Positions 14,633-54,339 of a stretch of DNA of 64,000 bases are shown one piece after another; position 1 is the first letter of the stretch; each line of letters opens with the position of its first letter. A program made the translations under genes and the position numbers. The notes beneath the pieces are model-generated. The model was not told the DNA's origin and made no database searches. It saw only the letters and a list, made by a program, of their open reading frames with translations. The stretch lies in contig JAJYIT010000006.1 in assembly GCA_021789975.1 (NCBI GenBank), forward strand, positions 62,001 through 126,000, written 5' to 3'. The DNA comes from Bacteroidota bacterium (GTDB lineage Bacteria; Bacteroidota; Ignavibacteria; Kryptoniales; JAKASW01).

Positions 14633-14662
14633 GTCCCGACGACGCTAAGCTGTCGTCGGGAC
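14633..14662 (+). other. Perfect 11-bp intercistronic hairpin (module B)
   Basis: GTCCCGACGAC (14633-14643) pairs with GTCGTCGGGAC (14652-14662) around an 8-nt loop. It lies between the cargo stop and the porV ribosome-binding site, exactly as the hairpin at 1601-1627 does. The stem sequences differ but the pairing is kept. No T-run follows. Confidence 0.75.
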
Positions 14663-14687
14663 GGATTAACAAACAAAGGAGTTGAAT

Positions 14688-15734
14688 ATGAAAAGAGGTT
14701 TACTTGTAATAGGCTTGATGCTGGTCGGATTTGGAGCGACATCCGCGTTCGCCCAAAGCCGTGCCGGAACCTCCGCGGCGCCTGAACTATTGATACCGGT
14801 AGGAGCCAAATACGAGGCGACCGCAGGATCAGCCAATGCTTTCGTAACTGGTGTCGACGCCATCTACTGGAATCCGGCAGGCCTGGATATGGAAAAGTCC
14901 GTCGGCGGTGCATTATTCTCGTACCGACAGTACATCGCGGGCATAGGGATAAGCTACCTTGCTGTCGGCGGTCGTTTCGGCGGACTCGGATCTCTGGCGT
15001 TGTCGATCCGTTCGTTTAATATAGGAACCATCGACGTGACGACAGAAGACCAACCCGATGGAACTGGGCAGCAGATCAGCCCGACATTCTTTACTGGTGG
15101 AATCACTTACTCGAAGCGACTGACCGATAGAATCAGTGTAGGAGCTACTGTCAATTTGATCGACGAGGGTTTCGGCAACGTGAATGCCTCCGCTGTAGGA
15201 TTCGACATTGGCGTACAGTATGAAAACCTTATCGGAATAAACGGTTTGGGACTCGGAGTAGCAGTGAAGAACGTCGGAACCGAGATGCAATATGGTGGTT
15301 CCGGTTTATACGTACAGGCGACCATACCGAGTGCCGGAATCGGATTGTCATACTACAAGGTCGAAGCGGCATCGTTCCAGCTCCCTTCTGTGATCGATAT
15401 CGGCCTTGGATATAAGAAGTCGCTCGACCACAACAATTCCCTCGAGGTTATGGGAACGTTCGAGAACAACAACTTTGGAATCGACGAGTACAGAGCAGGT
15501 GCGCAGTATGATTTCATGAAAACTCTCGCGATCCGAGCAGGCTACCTGTTCAGTCAGACCGGGGGAGCTTTCGGCAGCAGCGCTGGTACAGTCTCCCTCT
15601 TCGAAGGCTGGAGCTTTGGTGCCGGATTTGATCTCTCGAAGCTTACTGGACTTGGATTGTCCTTCGACTATGCCTTTGTTCCTGCAAGGTATTTCGGCGC
15701 AAACAATTTGTTTGACATCCACGTCGCTTTCTGA
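14688..15734 (+). CDS. PorV/PorQ-family outer-membrane protein (module B paralogue)
   Basis: 348 residues from ATG 14688, set by AAAGGAG and by identity with the module A paralogue; the in-frame TTG at 14682 is unlikely. The signal peptide ends in AFAQ. GTSAAPELLIPVGAKY and the YWNPAGLDMEKSVGGALFS block are almost unchanged from 1657-2703, and both end in a short strand with terminal Phe. It is expected to be an outer-membrane barrel of the T9SS PorV/PorQ group, encoded after its probable cargo. A terminator follows at once. Confidence 0.85.
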   Translation: MKRGLLVIGLMLVGFGATSAFAQSRAGTSAAPELLIPVGAKYEATAGSANAFVTGVDAIYWNPAGLDMEKSVGGALFSYRQYIAGIGISYLAVGGRFGGLGSLALSIRSFNIGTIDVTTEDQPDGTGQQISPTFFTGGITYSKRLTDRISVGATVNLIDEGFGNVNASAVGFDIGVQYENLIGINGLGLGVAVKNVGTEMQYGGSGLYVQATIPSAGIGLSYYKVEAASFQLPSVIDIGLGYKKSLDHNNSLEVMGTFENNNFGIDEYRAGAQYDFMKTLAIRAGYLFSQTGGAFGSSAGTVSLFEGWSFGAGFDLSKLTGLGLSFDYAFVPARYFGANNLFDIHVAF

Positions 15735-34320: not shown

Positions 34321-35508
34321 TCAGAAATACGTCTCCAGCTTCAAGTAATATGCTTGTGGATAGTACCAGTATTCAGTAAATGTCTTTCCATATGTGTAGA
34401 GAGTACCGACCGAGAACGAAGTATTGTCGCTGGCTGAATAACTGATTGTCCCGGCGAGGTAGCCGCTGCCGTCGTTGAAATTGGAAATGGACGATGCCAT
34501 CACCGTCGTGAGGGCAGTAAGCTGGTACGTTGCACTTAAGGCAAGATAGTCTTCCGCGAGATTCAGTATTCGTCCTTCATAAAGCCCGGTCAAGTTATAG
34601 TCGAACCGGTTGAGAGTTCCTTCTCCGTTGTGATAATACTCGAACAAGCCGTATAACCTGCTGGTAAATTGGTAGTCCATTCCAAGTATCCAGTTTACAT
34701 AGTAGCCGCCGGATTTCGATGGGTCCTGCGACACAAGTCCTTCACCTCTTATCCCTGCCGTCCATACATTCCCGGCAAAGTCGCCTCCGGTTATGACTCT
34801 TCTGTCCAGCAATCCTGCAAGCACCGCGAGGTCATACCCGATGATGTTGGTTCTGAATCTCGCGGCGTAGTTTGAGGTGAAGAAATGATACTCGGCGTTA
34901 TAAACAAGCTGCAAGTCCGTCAGTTGCCCGAGATAAAATGTCATCGACGCGGCATCAGCACCGTCTTTTTCAATCTTACCGAAATCGGCTGGATTGATTG
35001 GATTAAAGATGTCGGTTGGGTTCCACACGCGACCTGTTCCCCAGCTTATTCGCTGCCTTCCCAACACAAGTTTGCCGCTTGCCCCATTGGGGAACGAGAA
35101 TTCCTGGTCGAGGTACAGTCGGTCGATATAATCGGAAATTGAGCCATGGTCACCTGATAAGGGATGCCAGTGCAAGCTGACGACCTGTCGAAGTGGAGTG
35201 GTGGAAGCAAGACCGATCGTTGCGCTCCCTGAGTAATAGAGTCCGTCGATTTCGTATTCGAGACCGATCTTGGTGTTGTCGCCGAGATGAAGAGTCGGGC
35301 GAAGTCGCAACCTGGTCAGACTCGCGAATTCAGAATTCGACATATCTGCGAGCCGTGCAAACGAAGGCTGGATACTTTCGTAGACCGGCATCTCCATGAC
35401 ATAGCCGGAGAAGTCGAGGGAAGTCTGTGCGTTCCCTTTGGGGGCAAAGAATATTAAACACAGAGACACCGAGACAACGGAGTGAATTGAATGATGAAGG
35501 GAGGTCAC
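34321..35508 (-). CDS. Outer-membrane beta-barrel protein, last gene of the Lol-like operon
   Basis: 395 residues from GTG 35508. The signal peptide core (VVSVSLCLIFF) and the upstream GGAG are encoded inside a short inverted repeat (35456-35526), so the start appears recruited from a repeat. The mature part alternates like a porin-type barrel and ends in YLKLETYF. I do not recognise a precise family; it resembles DUF1302/alginate-export-like barrels. Its operon position suggests it is the outer-membrane end of the transporter or its client. Confidence 0.65.
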   Translation of the reverse strand: MTSLHHSIHSVVSVSLCLIFFAPKGNAQTSLDFSGYVMEMPVYESIQPSFARLADMSNSEFASLTRLRLRPTLHLGDNTKIGLEYEIDGLYYSGSATIGLASTTPLRQVVSLHWHPLSGDHGSISDYIDRLYLDQEFSFPNGASGKLVLGRQRISWGTGRVWNPTDIFNPINPADFGKIEKDGADAASMTFYLGQLTDLQLVYNAEYHFFTSNYAARFRTNIIGYDLAVLAGLLDRRVITGGDFAGNVWTAGIRGEGLVSQDPSKSGGYYVNWILGMDYQFTSRLYGLFEYYHNGEGTLNRFDYNLTGLYEGRILNLAEDYLALSATYQLTALTTVMASSISNFNDGSGYLAGTISYSASDNTSFSVGTLYTYGKTFTEYWYYPQAYYLKLETYF

Positions 35509-35526
35509 TCTGTGTCTCCGTGTTCC
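35456..35526. repeat. Inverted repeat of ACACAGAGACACCGAG type
   Basis: The left arm (35456-35484) has AAACACAGAGACACCGAG and GGAGTG. The right arm (35506-35526) has CACTCTGTGTCTCCGTGTT, which is its near-complement. It lies at the junction of the ATPase and barrel genes. Short CACAGAG/CTCTGTG repeats are a known kind of dispersed intergenic repeat. Confidence 0.65.
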
Positions 35527-35528
35527 AA

Positions 35529-36236
35529 TTATTGATTTGTCTTGTCGGTCACAATATGCCCGTCCTTCAAGATCAGCAGTCTGTGTGCACGCTCGATAAC
35601 TTGCGGGTCATGGGATGAGAACACGAATGTTATTCCTCCTTCATGGTTCAGCTTCTCCATGAGTTTGAGAAGCTTGATGGCGGTCCCGGAATCGAGATTG
35701 GCAGTTGGTTCGTCAGCGAGAACAAGCCTGGGATCATTTGAAATCGCTCTCGCAACAGCAACCCGTTGCTGCTGTCCTCCGCTCATTTCGTTGGGACGCT
35801 TGTGCGCGAGCTCGGCAATCCCAAGCTGTTCCAGCAGGGCCATCCCCCTACGCTTTCGTTCACGGGCATCGATTCCGCGGAGCATCATGGTGAACTCGAC
35901 ATTTTCAAGAGCGGTCAACACCGGATTGAGATTATACGCTTGAAACACGAAGCCGATTTTCTTCAAACGGATCCCGGCAAGTTCGCGGCGAGTTTTCGAT
36001 GCAACATTTTCACCGTCGAGAATAATCTTGCCATCGCTGGGTTTGTCGAGTGTACCGATGATATTAAGTAGGGTCGTTTTGCCTGAACCGGAAGGGCCGG
36101 CAATTACGGAGAAATCGCCCGGCGAAACGGCAAGACTTATTCCTCGAAGTGCGTTAACCGGCACACCGTTGTCATGGTACACTTTTGTTACGTCTTCAAC
36201 GCGGATTATCTCTGTTCTGGCTACTTGTGAATCCAT
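35529..36236 (-). CDS. LolD/MacB-type ABC transporter ATPase
   Basis: 235 residues. Walker A GPSGSGKTT, signature MSGGQQQRVAVARA and Walker B LVLADEPTANLD are complete, and the length and TLDKPSDGKI region fit the LolD/MacB class. It would drive the two FtsX-type permeases encoded upstream, extracting lipoproteins or other substrates from the inner membrane. It lies 34 bp after the second permease. Confidence 0.88.
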   Translation of the reverse strand: MDSQVARTEIIRVEDVTKVYHDNGVPVNALRGISLAVSPGDFSVIAGPSGSGKTTLLNIIGTLDKPSDGKIILDGENVASKTRRELAGIRLKKIGFVFQAYNLNPVLTALENVEFTMMLRGIDARERKRRGMALLEQLGIAELAHKRPNEMSGGQQQRVAVARAISNDPRLVLADEPTANLDSGTAIKLLKLMEKLNHEGGITFVFSSHDPQVIERAHRLLILKDGHIVTDKTNQ

Positions 36237-36270: not shown

Positions 36271-37503
36271 TTAGATCGATCTTATCGCATCAACCGGATG
36301 AAGCCGAATGGCTTTCATCGCCGGGTAAACTGATCCAATCACTGTCACAAAGGGTATTATGACAGCGGCCTTGATGACATCAGAACCCAATAGGATAGGG
36401 AAGATCTTCGAGCCCGATCCCCATGATCTGAGACTCGCGGCGAACATAGATAAGTCCCATCCGAATCGTGAAAGATCGAGGCAAGTGAAGTAAGCAATTA
36501 CGAGGCCAACTATGGTCCCCGCTATCCCAAGAAGAAAAGCCTCGACAAGAATCATCCTGAAGATCTTCCCATTTGACATTCCGACAGCCATCGCTACTCC
36601 GAACTCGTGCGTTCGTTCCAAGACTGCCATAAGCATGACATCGATTATTCCGAAGATCAGTGCAATTGCTATAATTCCATATACGACGTAGAACATCTGG
36701 TCGTAAAAACCCAGCTGCATGACGAAAAGGGGAAGCATTTGCTCATAGCTCATGATTTCGTATCGGTTGGAAGGACCGCTGACTGCCTGAAGTTCTTTCC
36801 GGAGGCTGTCTAACACAACCGGCATCATGGTCCGGCGAACCGGATCGATCACAAATTCGGAAACCATGTTGCGGACATTCAGCATTTGCCTTAGTGTTTG
36901 AATCGAAGCGTAAACGTGAGTTTGATCGAACCCTGAATTGGATGTCTCATAGATACCGCATACCCGGCAGCCTTCAGATCCGATATTGCCGTCTGGCTGT
37001 GAAGCCATGATCACCACCTTATCCCCGAGCCCGGCTTTCAGTTTTTCGGCAATAGCGGTGCTGATAATTATCTGGTTCGTCCCGTCGCCTAGATACTCTC
37101 CCTTGACGATGTATTGGGATATTGTTGTGATTTTCTTTTCTTCATTCGGTATAATTCCTACTATCGAAACCCCTGCGGAATTGTAGGCGCTGCAAATTAG
37201 TCCGTATGTCCGAAGACGCTCCGAATACCGAAGCATAGTCGAATCACCTTCAAGCATTTCTTTTATTAGTCCTGGCGATTCTATCGAGTTATCGATGCCG
37301 GGATCGGCCTGGTAGCCTGGCTTATGAATTTGTATGTAGCCTACATCAGTCCCGATCTGGTTCGTAAGCATCTGTTCCATGAACCCGCGGACAAAAGCGC
37401 GGGCCAAGATCAGCGCAAAAACGCCGACCACGATCGAAGCAGTCAATATCAGAGACCGTCGTTTATTCCTGAGTATGTTACGCCAAGCTATCTTGCTAAT
37501 CAT
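36271..37503 (-). CDS. FtsX-type ABC permease, LolC/E-like (second)
   Basis: 410 residues. One N-terminal membrane segment (SLILTASIVVGVFALILA), a ~220-residue periplasmic domain of the MacB type, then three C-terminal segments. ISKIAWRNILRNKRRS and the final YPAMKAIRLHPVDAIRSI are hallmarks of LolC/E-like permeases. It probably pairs with the 37691-38938 product and the LolD-like ATPase. It follows a repeat element of ~160 bp. Confidence 0.85.
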   Translation of the reverse strand: MISKIAWRNILRNKRRSLILTASIVVGVFALILARAFVRGFMEQMLTNQIGTDVGYIQIHKPGYQADPGIDNSIESPGLIKEMLEGDSTMLRYSERLRTYGLICSAYNSAGVSIVGIIPNEEKKITTISQYIVKGEYLGDGTNQIIISTAIAEKLKAGLGDKVVIMASQPDGNIGSEGCRVCGIYETSNSGFDQTHVYASIQTLRQMLNVRNMVSEFVIDPVRRTMMPVVLDSLRKELQAVSGPSNRYEIMSYEQMLPLFVMQLGFYDQMFYVVYGIIAIALIFGIIDVMLMAVLERTHEFGVAMAVGMSNGKIFRMILVEAFLLGIAGTIVGLVIAYFTCLDLSRFGWDLSMFAASLRSWGSGSKIFPILLGSDVIKAAVIIPFVTVIGSVYPAMKAIRLHPVDAIRSI

Positions 37504-50532: not shown

Positions 50533-53500
50533 ACCGGCCAGACCAGCAAGAACCGCAAATCGAAGGTCCACGAAGTTCTTACGAATGGTGCTTATGCAGC
50601 TATGGATATCAACAACATTTTCAATTACTACTCCAATGACGGCGATGGATCCTTCAATCCTTACAAAAGAAACACCGAGGGGTTTGAGTTTCCGATCGGG
50701 TCAAAGTACGGAACCTGTATGCTTGAAGACGGCCTTGTTTGGACGGCTTTCAAGAACAATTCGCTCTGCAGCGGCGGTTCCACCTACACTCATGGCTTGC
50801 AGGCCGGGAAGATTCTTGTGAATGGTACATCATCGCATCCGCCAGTGGCAGATGACCCGGGTAACACCGCGAATAGGATCTATCGCGTTCGCCCGGACAT
50901 GAGGCCAACATCCGATTCCGGTAAGGTTGCTTCAGAAACGAAGGTCCTGAACCGTGCCGAAATGCCTTACTTTAACAGAAGCGGAATAAGCTCCAGAATG
51001 ACCGTCAGCGAACTCTTGAACCAGTATTGGAGTGACTGGAACGAGTGGCCGGCGAATGAAGGCGCACCATTTACCGACGCGAGCGGAGTGGTCCATCCTA
51101 ACGGAGGGAGTGGCTACAATCCTAGTACCTGTACTCCGGGGTTTCCGGGTACGGATCAAACCCAATGGTGTGTCATGAATGACATGGACACGTCGAGAAC
51201 TCTGGGCCTCTACGCCTCTGACCCGATAGGGATCGAGGTTCAGCGCACGATCTGGGCGTACAACTGTGGGGGTGGATTGGGAAACACGATTTTCATCAGC
51301 TACCGCTTTATCAATAAGAGTGGCGCGGAGTTGGACTCCATGTATGTCTCGCAATGGGCGGACCCCGATGTCGGCTATCCGGGAGATGACGCTGTCGGAT
51401 GCGATACAACCTTGAACCTTGGGTACGCTTACAACGCTGTACCATATGACCAGTCCTACACGGGTGAATTAGATTCACCGCCGCCCGCAGTCGGCTTTGA
51501 ACTCCTGCAGGGTCCTATCGTACCTGGAACGGCGAGCGATACTGCAACTTGGAATATGGGGAAGATCGCAGGAAAGAAAAATCTGCCGATGACATCGTAT
51601 TTCTTTTCTTGCGGGGGGAGCTCCATATTCGCAGATCCGTATTTGTACACCCCCGATGGCACACTGCAATGGTACAATGTTATGAGAGGGTTGACGACAA
51701 TCGATGGGTTACCACTAACTGCATCGGTTACCGGTGGAAGCAAATACTGCTACGCGGGTGATCCGGTCACAAACACAGGTCAGACATTCATAGGATCGGG
51801 GACAGTCGCTGTTCCGGGAGACATTTGCGTGTACATAAACTCCGGCCCTTTTACCATGATGCCAGGAGATACGCAGCAAGTCGTGCTCGCTGCAATTGCA
51901 GGTATTGGAAAAGACTACCTACAATCGATTTATGTTTTGAAGAAAAACAGTTACGATGCCGAAGTAGCTTTTCGTAATGCGCTCAATATGACAACTGTTC
52001 CTTCTCCGACCACCCCTGTCTCTTCAGCAAACAATGCCGGTGGCGCCATCTTAGTACAGTGGGGAAATGAGGCTGAGAGTTTTACTCAATCTAGATATTT
52101 GTTCGAAGGTTATAATGTGTACCAACTATCTTCGCCGATAGCTTCAAAGGAAGGCTCCAGACTAATCGCTACCTTTGACAAGATCGACGGGGTAACATCT
52201 TTAGACGGTTATGAGCTTGATCCTGCGACCGGCAAGGTGGTACTGGAGTAGCAGCAATACGGCACCGACTCTGGACTGCAGTATCAGCTTGCGATAAGGA
52301 AGGACTACATTGAGAATGCCCCCTTAGTCAAAGGCAGGAAATATTACTATGCGGTCACAGCTTATGCTGCAAGTGCTGATCCCAACGCAGGCATTAACAA
52401 CACCGAAAGTCGTATCGTACCGGACACCGTGTCGTTCGGTTACGAGCTGCCCGGACCAAATTATGGAGATCGAATCTCTGCAACCCACATTGCGGGGACA
52501 TCGGGCGGCAGCGTGAACGTCACAGTCATGGATCCTTCAAAGTTGACTGGCGATCAATATCGGTTGGTGTTTCATAGCGAAACTTACTCGCTTGGTTCAG
52601 ATGGTGTATGGAATGATATTACAGCTACCGGCAAGAACAAGAGGCTCCTCAAGGTGCAAGATTTGACGGGCTCGTCTTTATCTTCCACTGCAACCTGGAG
52701 TGAGGAGATCAAAGGTTACATTGACGTCCACACCGCTGTACATCTGGACTCACCCAACTACGATTACTGTGATGGGGTAAAGTTGACTTTTCCATCCGGC
52801 GTCATCATAGACAAAGCTTACGAGCCGATTAGTAACAAAAACGGATCGACCATCCCTTACTATATCGATAATGCAACCAATTCTATTTTCTTTGGCAATA
52901 CCTCAGCCCTTTCCCCTGATACCACCGAGAGGACAGGCAACGGTGTCTTTGCAGGTGGTGAAGAAATTGTGGTGACTGTCCACCCCGCAACTTTGCCGAT
53001 GCTAATCAATTACACCATGTATGATGACAATTTTGGAGCGACGTATGTCGACCCCGGTCATGGATTTCCAACCGGAAAACTAGTCGATATATCCGGAGTT
53101 GTTACATTGTCGGGGGCCATCGCAAATAGGGTCGTGGTTCAGAAACAGTGGGATGTTGAAGATGTGACAAAAGGAAGTGTTGCTCTTAGTGATCAGACCG
53201 TAGTAGCTGGCCAGGATATCTATGCGCCAAATTATTATTTTGAGACTAACGGAATGCGCGGACCCGGCGGATCTTCCGGTAGCATGTTTGCAGACGTTGG
53301 CCCGACCGGAGATCAGGTATTCGACGGGATTAAAGTGGACGTCGACGGTACTTACAAAACTCCGACTACGATAGGCAAGATAGTCTACTTGAAGGAAGGG
53401 AGCGGGTCCGGTTACAAAATCACAGACTTCACCGTGTTCGGATTTGCGGATGGCACTGCGGCCTCTTCTATGCCGTTATACGGGCTTAGCGGTGGTGTAC

Positions 53501-54339
53501 CTCCGACTGTCATAGCAGATCTGCAACAGGGTTATTAGCTAAAGTGGACCGGTGTACTTGCTGACACTACCATAAACGGGAAGACGGTTGTTATCACAAA
53601 GTCTGGCGGTTCGATTGCTACACTTTTTGGTGCAAGCAACTACTCTATCGCAGACCATCCGTTGAATCCCAATCCCGGGAGTAAGACTCCTTTCGCGATA
53701 AGAATACCTTTCGAGATCTGGAACATTGACAAAGGAGAGCAGGTAAACCTGCTTATCTACGATCAAAACACCGCTGCCATTAATCCGATGACGGCAAGCA
53801 TCTTTCCAGTGTGGCGTACCAGCGACAGGATGTATGCCTGGGTGGTAAATACGAAATACACGCCAACTGTTTTGGACACCAAATGTACGGCCGTAGTTGA
53901 CAGGTTAACCTGGAGCATAGTGTTCATGAAATCAATCTTTACGACCGGGGATGAAATAGAAATACTTTATAACAAGCCGATACAACTGGGGGTTGATGTG
54001 TATACCTTCACTGTTCCACAGGGAGTCAACGGCATATCGAACCAGAACAAGAAAGTGGTGAAGGAATTTTCTTTATCACAGAACTTCCCCAATCCATTTA
54101 ACCCGAGGACGACGATCAATTTCCAGTTACCGAAGAGCGGCCACGTTACGTTGCGGATTTATGACATTCTCGGCAGGGAAGTTGTAACTCTCATCGATGG
54201 AGAAAGACCTGCGCGTACGTATCAGGCAATCTTCGATGGTTCTCGCTTTGCGAGCGGAGTCTACTTCTATTGAGTTGATGCTGTTGGTGATAACGGGCAG
54301 AGATTCAGTTCCGTAAAGAAGCTGGTACTCGTGAAATAA
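50533..54339 (+). pseudogene. Decayed T9SS cargo protein
   Basis: A single reading frame from about 50533 to TAA 54337-54339 is broken by TAG 52249-52251, TAG 53536-53538 (where the intact copies have Glu in QQGYELRW) and TGA 54271-54273 (within the final GVYFY-DAVGD strand). No signal peptide remains. The body parallels 11149-14619 and 2-1585. The C-terminus differs: it has the classical QNFPNPFNPRTTINFQLP sorting domain instead of the FPNPYYG type. Confidence 0.88.

Follow-up and report, generated by a model that had tools for sequence, protein, structure and literature searches.

The principle that a repeat can provide a signal peptide is already known from Yersinia. In the passages of Delihas (2007; PMC2759123) that deal with this case, the RU-2/YPAL repeat, a 168-nucleotide (nt) element of Enterobacteria, spans residues 1-30 of the predicted signal peptide of YPO1552, a putative exported protein of 144 amino acids, and the homologues of YPO1552 carry unrelated signal peptides. 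For the Rickettsia palindromic elements (RPEs; Ogata et al. 2000, 2002), the part of PMC2229807 concerned with them describes insertions in 19 diverse protein genes. Searches of the literature by concept gave only the Delihas papers as close precedents, and a search of the available papers with the arm words of the repeat described here found none. Here we describe a hairpin repeat at the start of an outer-membrane beta-barrel gene in a Bacteroidota bacterium of the Ignavibacteria (GCA_021789975.1, contig JAJYIT010000006.1, positions 62,001 to 126,000). This whole stretch of 64,000 nt is referred to as the window.

The 5' end of the barrel gene seems to be derived from the hairpin. From comparison of the sequences, we consider it reasonably probable that a hairpin of a repeat family landed directly behind the stop codon of the upstream ATPase gene, taking the place of the barrel gene's former 5' end. 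Ribosomes ending the ATPase would then most likely reinitiate at the GTG of the hairpin, 20 nt further on, aided by the hairpin's own GGAG and by melting of the stem. As a result, the barrel would be exported with a chimeric Sec signal peptide, of which the n-region and half of the core come from the hairpin, whereas the remainder and the cleavage site are native. Such a course would be workable given the purine-rich 5' arm and the pyrimidine-rich 3' arm of the family on either strand. The features concerned are the following.

34321-35508, minus strand: barrel gene, predicted outer-membrane beta-barrel of 395 amino acids, with the GTG start within the hairpin (open reading frame (ORF), AlphaFold2 (AF2) model, Foldseek).
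35456-35527, no strand: hairpin repeat element with the arms AAACACAGAGACACCGAG... (from 35456) and CTCTGTGTCTCCGTGTT (35508-35524) and a loop between them (fold, covariance model).
35516-35519, minus strand: GGAG, Shine-Dalgarno (SD)-like, 7 nt before the GTG and paired in the predicted stem (sequence, fold).
35506-35508, minus strand: GTG start codon, paired in the predicted stem (ORF, fold).
35455-35478, minus strand: codons 11-18, read from the left arm as VVSVSLCL, the initial half of the hydrophobic core (sequence).
35425-35454, minus strand: native remainder of the signal peptide, IFFA and PKGNAQ (sequence, orthologues).

The hairpin is an imperfect 70-nt inverted repeat, which lies directly behind the ATPase stop codon, between it and the body of the barrel gene; the GTG is 20 nt from the stop. 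The fold energy was -26.3 kcal/mol (z -3.83), with 0 of 200 shuffles equally stable, and the stem persisted when folded within a context of 281 nt. A search of Rfam with the hairpin region gave no match. Terminal inverted repeats (TIRs), which mark one subfamily of the repeat as described below, were absent within 60 nt of this copy.

The initial annotation had placed both the GTG and the GGAG in the right arm of a repeat and the hydrophobic core of the signal peptide in its left arm. The inverted repeat is real, as indicated by the fold and by its detection with a model made without this copy, and the GGAG falls in the right arm. The GTG is inside the hairpin, but only its G belongs to the arm proper, as the innermost base, and the TG is in the inner stem. 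The VVSVSLCL half of the core is coded by the left arm as proposed, but IFFA and the cleavage region are outside the repeat, so that the repeat does not encode the whole signal peptide. In other words, the GGAG and the GTG come from the hairpin, together with the n-region and roughly half of the hydrophobic core. The Kyte-Doolittle (KD) value of the core is 2.84 over 10 residues, and those of the genus orthologues are 1.78-3.20. Cleavage probably takes place at KGNA/Q, judging from the position of AQ in the orthologues. A hydrophobic core and small residues at -3 and -1 (G-N-A before Q, at this site placed by the orthologues) are those of a Sec signal peptide.

The GTG is the first ATG, GTG or TTG after the in-frame upstream stop; no such codon is present among the 33 open codons preceding it. 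Apart from this GTG, the one start that retains some hydrophobic stretch is that of codon 14, also a GTG within the hairpin, and the next ATGs, at codons 38 and 40, are beyond the signal peptide. In 25 of the 46 window ORFs, an SD-like word stands before one of the first three starts, compared with 60 of 262 internal controls; therefore, SD use is plausible in this genome.

The barrel was searched in 60 other genomes, 33 of which gave a match, and the 20 best loci were inspected. A start outside the repeat that orthologues might support, the point on which the initial annotation could have failed, was sought in this comparison and did not appear: all 20 orthologues have unrelated N-termini, mostly conventional signal peptides with ATG starts, and no ATG, GTG or TTG outside the hairpin keeps the signal peptide. 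In most close relatives, homology starts at about residue 27. Among the 21 barrel loci, only the focal one has the hairpin at the gene; a scan of the 20 orthologous loci with the model R2 (see below) found none at the gene and one weak match elsewhere in L013 (E 0.19). In these designations, G000 is the genome under study, G002 and G007 are its sister species, and L-numbers are individual loci. It should be mentioned that the signal-peptide region of the barrel orthologues in G002 and G011 (L003 and L004) is made of another kind of repeat, of the CCGTGTTCCG type. This word is also present elsewhere in G002 and G011, with 5 and 9 matches in all.

Several observations weigh against a hairpin-derived start. 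The n-region read from the GTG, MTSLHHSIHS, has no Lys or Arg, where all nine genus orthologues have 2-8; the basic n-region of a Sec signal is thus missing from the GTG start, and three such residues are gained from an upstream ATT. Because of this lack, export may be weak or the start may be different. Both the GGAG and the GTG are paired in the predicted stem, and for this reason coupling to ATPase translation is proposed. Furthermore, the 5' regions of the relatives are too divergent to align, and the barrel locus has no alignable empty site. It is the difference from the relatives that is seen directly, and the insertion would be deduced from it.

The main rival, which we regard as unlikely but worth weighing, is that translation truly starts at the non-canonical ATT (35527-35529), which overlaps the last base of the ATPase stop, so that the whole hairpin is read. 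The reading frame is open from this codon, and the resulting n-region (MGTRRHRVTSLHHSIHS, MGTRRHR) contains three Arg, being basic as in the nine genus orthologues. ATT is rare as a start codon, and no SD-like word is found ahead of it, while the GTG has the GGAG at a fair spacing. By codon type and GGAG, the GTG is the more likely start.

The barrel protein has no sequence match in Pfam, NCBIfam or the PDB. Its AF2 model consists of many strands, with a mean predicted local distance difference test (pLDDT) score of 79.3, and was aligned by Foldseek with porins (E about 1e-9, TM-scores about 0.43-0.59). As modeled, the product is an outer-membrane beta-barrel. The mature part is conserved: the proportion of nonsynonymous differences (pN) of the focal gene is 0.097-0.139, against a near-saturated synonymous proportion (pS) of 0.69-0.81. 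Private changes, of 363, numbered 23 in G000, 13 in G002, 13 in G007 and 31 in G011. By these counts, the gene is under strong purifying selection, and the focal branch is not relaxed, since its private changes show no excess. This bears on another explanation, in which damage done by the hairpin to the 5' end has left a gene that is weakly expressed or on its way to being lost. The n-region free of Lys and Arg and the ribosome site buried in the stem would suit such a gene, but the ORF is intact as far as the C-terminal Phe, the constraint is strong and the focal branch shows no acceleration. A recent event would leave no trace yet, which weakens the argument from constraint; even so, a dying gene seems somewhat less likely than the ATT start.

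The hairpin at the GTG was compared with its family by two covariance models. R1 included the focal copy, and R2 was built from 12 copies of other genomes to avoid circularity. On both strands of the window, R2 found the focal place only (best E 9.7e-8), and it ranked this copy second in G000. With R1, G000 yielded 25 matches, at 17 distinct places, and at least 12 of the 13 genus genomes had matches. With the own genome counted, the arm pattern with at most one mismatch was present in 10 of the 13 genus genomes (in G000 at one place), and 19 of 197 class genomes contain it with no mismatch; 16-nt arm words are identical in the genomes of relatives. The exact arm word was rejected as a many-copy repeat, as it has a single place in G000; many copies are a property of the looser family alone. 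The reversed-pattern control for arm-word counts is not independent, given the periodicity of the arms, and was not used for them. On these matches, the focal hairpin is a true member of the R1/R2 family of the genus. A coincidental likeness to the family, with the inverted repeat formed at this very site, is very improbable. Although no TIR, target duplication or empty site is recognizable at this locus, where the 5' regions of the relatives do not align, R2 matches the repeat at the above E value and the arm words recur unchanged.

The hairpin of the family is built from units of 8-9 nt, AACCACNAAGNCACNAAG...CTTNGTGNCTTNGTGGTT and relatives. With 150 candidates scored per genome, 94 places were examined, so that there are at least 94 in all. 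The family is mostly intergenic: 79 of the 94 places have no overlapping ORF of at least 150 amino acids. Such an ORF covers the other 15, where it should be considered that counts of N-terminal overlap inflate readily when ORFs are extended upstream. By inspection, coding overlap is unavoidable in five of the 15 (L156; L181; L203 and L204, which are one locus in two species; and L239, in mid-protein). The L275 copy interrupts a gene, and for nine (L213, L214, L227, L235, L238, L240, L242, L277 and L281) either a usable start lies further on or the ORF is doubtful.

The gene interrupted at L275 (G012:C79:5150-8200, element 1492-1577) is presumably glycosidase-like, a name given by resemblance, and is uninterrupted in G009, G011, G000 and G005, which makes one clean filled/empty pair. 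This hairpin is inside a larger unit with CTAG flanks and inverted ends around GGCCGAAAA. TIR ends of CTAG and GCGGCCGAAAA, with CTAG in most, flank 13 of the 94 copies and none of 1508 control places. Because of these ends and the filled/empty pair, part of the family behaves, as far as sequence comparison tells, as a miniature inverted-repeat transposable element (MITE). In G004, there are several near-identical copies of the unit around the hairpin (L238, L239, L295-L299 and L302), one of which is in frame inside an FGE-sulfatase domain protein. At L303 and L304 (G008:C18), the hairpin forms tandem arrays, repeating about every 73 nt.

Two further kinds of signal peptide contain the family. 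In LolA of G002 and G007 (L204, G002:C26; L203, G007:C70), the hairpin is between the ATG and the hydrophobic core, and the right MITE end seems, by eye, to code RRRFSAT. LolA has no hairpin at its start in the other 11 of the 13 genus genomes. The LolA region of G002 and G007 is 92.7% identical over 2752 nt, and their barrel genes differ at a pS of 0.61. Since the LolA DNA is far closer than the barrel genes, the two cases are not independent events, and this suggests that the region was shared through recent transfer. Another repeat word at the start of LolA in G000, GATTCAAGATTCAAAATT, has only two places in that genome and is too weak to claim. A weaker family member lies between the start and the lipobox of a DUF4249-like lipoprotein in G000 (C74:45164-46165; 27.2 bits, with the cut-off at 28.5); the homologues in G003, G012 and G010 have no hairpin there. 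The independent signal-peptide cases are thus three, including the barrel, compared with a single case in mid-protein (L239) and a single interruption (L275), too few for a rate.

The composition of the arms was examined in 84 copies of 55-90 nt, 10 of the 94 being left out for length. The purine share was 66% in the first 26 nt and 34% in the last 26 nt; as the element is palindromic, this bias is found on both strands. The translated halves had mean KD values of -1.67 and 0.94, compared with -0.29 and -0.32 in dinucleotide shuffles. Open frames that are basic first and hydrophobic second made up 14.5% of 504 frames, compared with 1.0% of 5040 shuffled ones. Such frames owe their frequency to the composition of the arms, rich in purines in the 5' arm and in pyrimidines in the 3' arm whichever strand is read. 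At least one signal-peptide-like frame was present in 48 of the 84 copies, and in the focal element the barrel frame is the sole one of six to qualify. A tentative and rather speculative extension is that hairpins whose 5' arm is rich in purines hold a latent signal peptide whichever way they are oriented, with a basic arm followed by the loop and a hydrophobic arm, and that their spread repeatedly rewrites secretion signals in the genus, as in the barrel, LolA of the two sister species and the DUF4249-like protein. If this is true, the repeats would be a standing source of export signals.

Upstream of the barrel gene are two genes on the same strand.

36271-37503, minus strand: FtsX permease, LolC/E- and MacB-like (model matches).
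35529-36236, minus strand: ATP-binding cassette (ABC) ATPase, LolD/MacB-like (model matches).

The order on the minus strand is permease, ATPase and barrel, which is kept at most of the inspected orthologous loci. The ATPase and the permease match Lol and MacB models, with scores under the curated cut-offs of the Lol models. Elsewhere in the window, direct repeats of 300 nt with 78-80% identity (656-955 and 53440-53739; 1621-1920 and 14652-14951) are probably paralogous genes.

Signal peptides change rapidly in evolution, and what they were made from is seldom visible; here the source is recognizable as a member of a hairpin family. The earlier proposal that the repeat was domesticated as the 5' end of a secreted-protein gene is supported in this sense, as something that we infer. 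The arm composition offers a simple, testable reason why repeats of either orientation might become export signals, and annotation of gene starts near such repeats deserves care.

As for the known systems, the likeness to bacterial MITEs, as outlined in parts of PMC2229807, is in the 13 of 94 copies within a TIR unit, mostly with CTAG ends, and in the one clean filled/empty pair, while the focal copy is a hairpin only. RPEs, by their description in the same source, are likewise palindromic repeats found between genes and in frame within genes, and the predicted barrel ORF, by its sequence, also reads a palindrome in frame within a conserved protein; unlike them, the present copies lie for the most part between genes, and the overlap with coding sequence, unavoidable in a few cases, mainly concerns signal-peptide regions. 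The closest case, on the account of it in PMC2759123, is YPO1552, with a palindrome in the signal peptide and homologues with unrelated signal peptides, a likeness drawn from its description. In contrast to YPAL, the repeat described here is a 70-nt hairpin at a conserved barrel gene of an ABC operon, with the predicted start codon and GGAG inside the hairpin. What is new is the hairpin family, the conserved barrel with its comparative loci, the start site inside the hairpin and the argument from arm composition.
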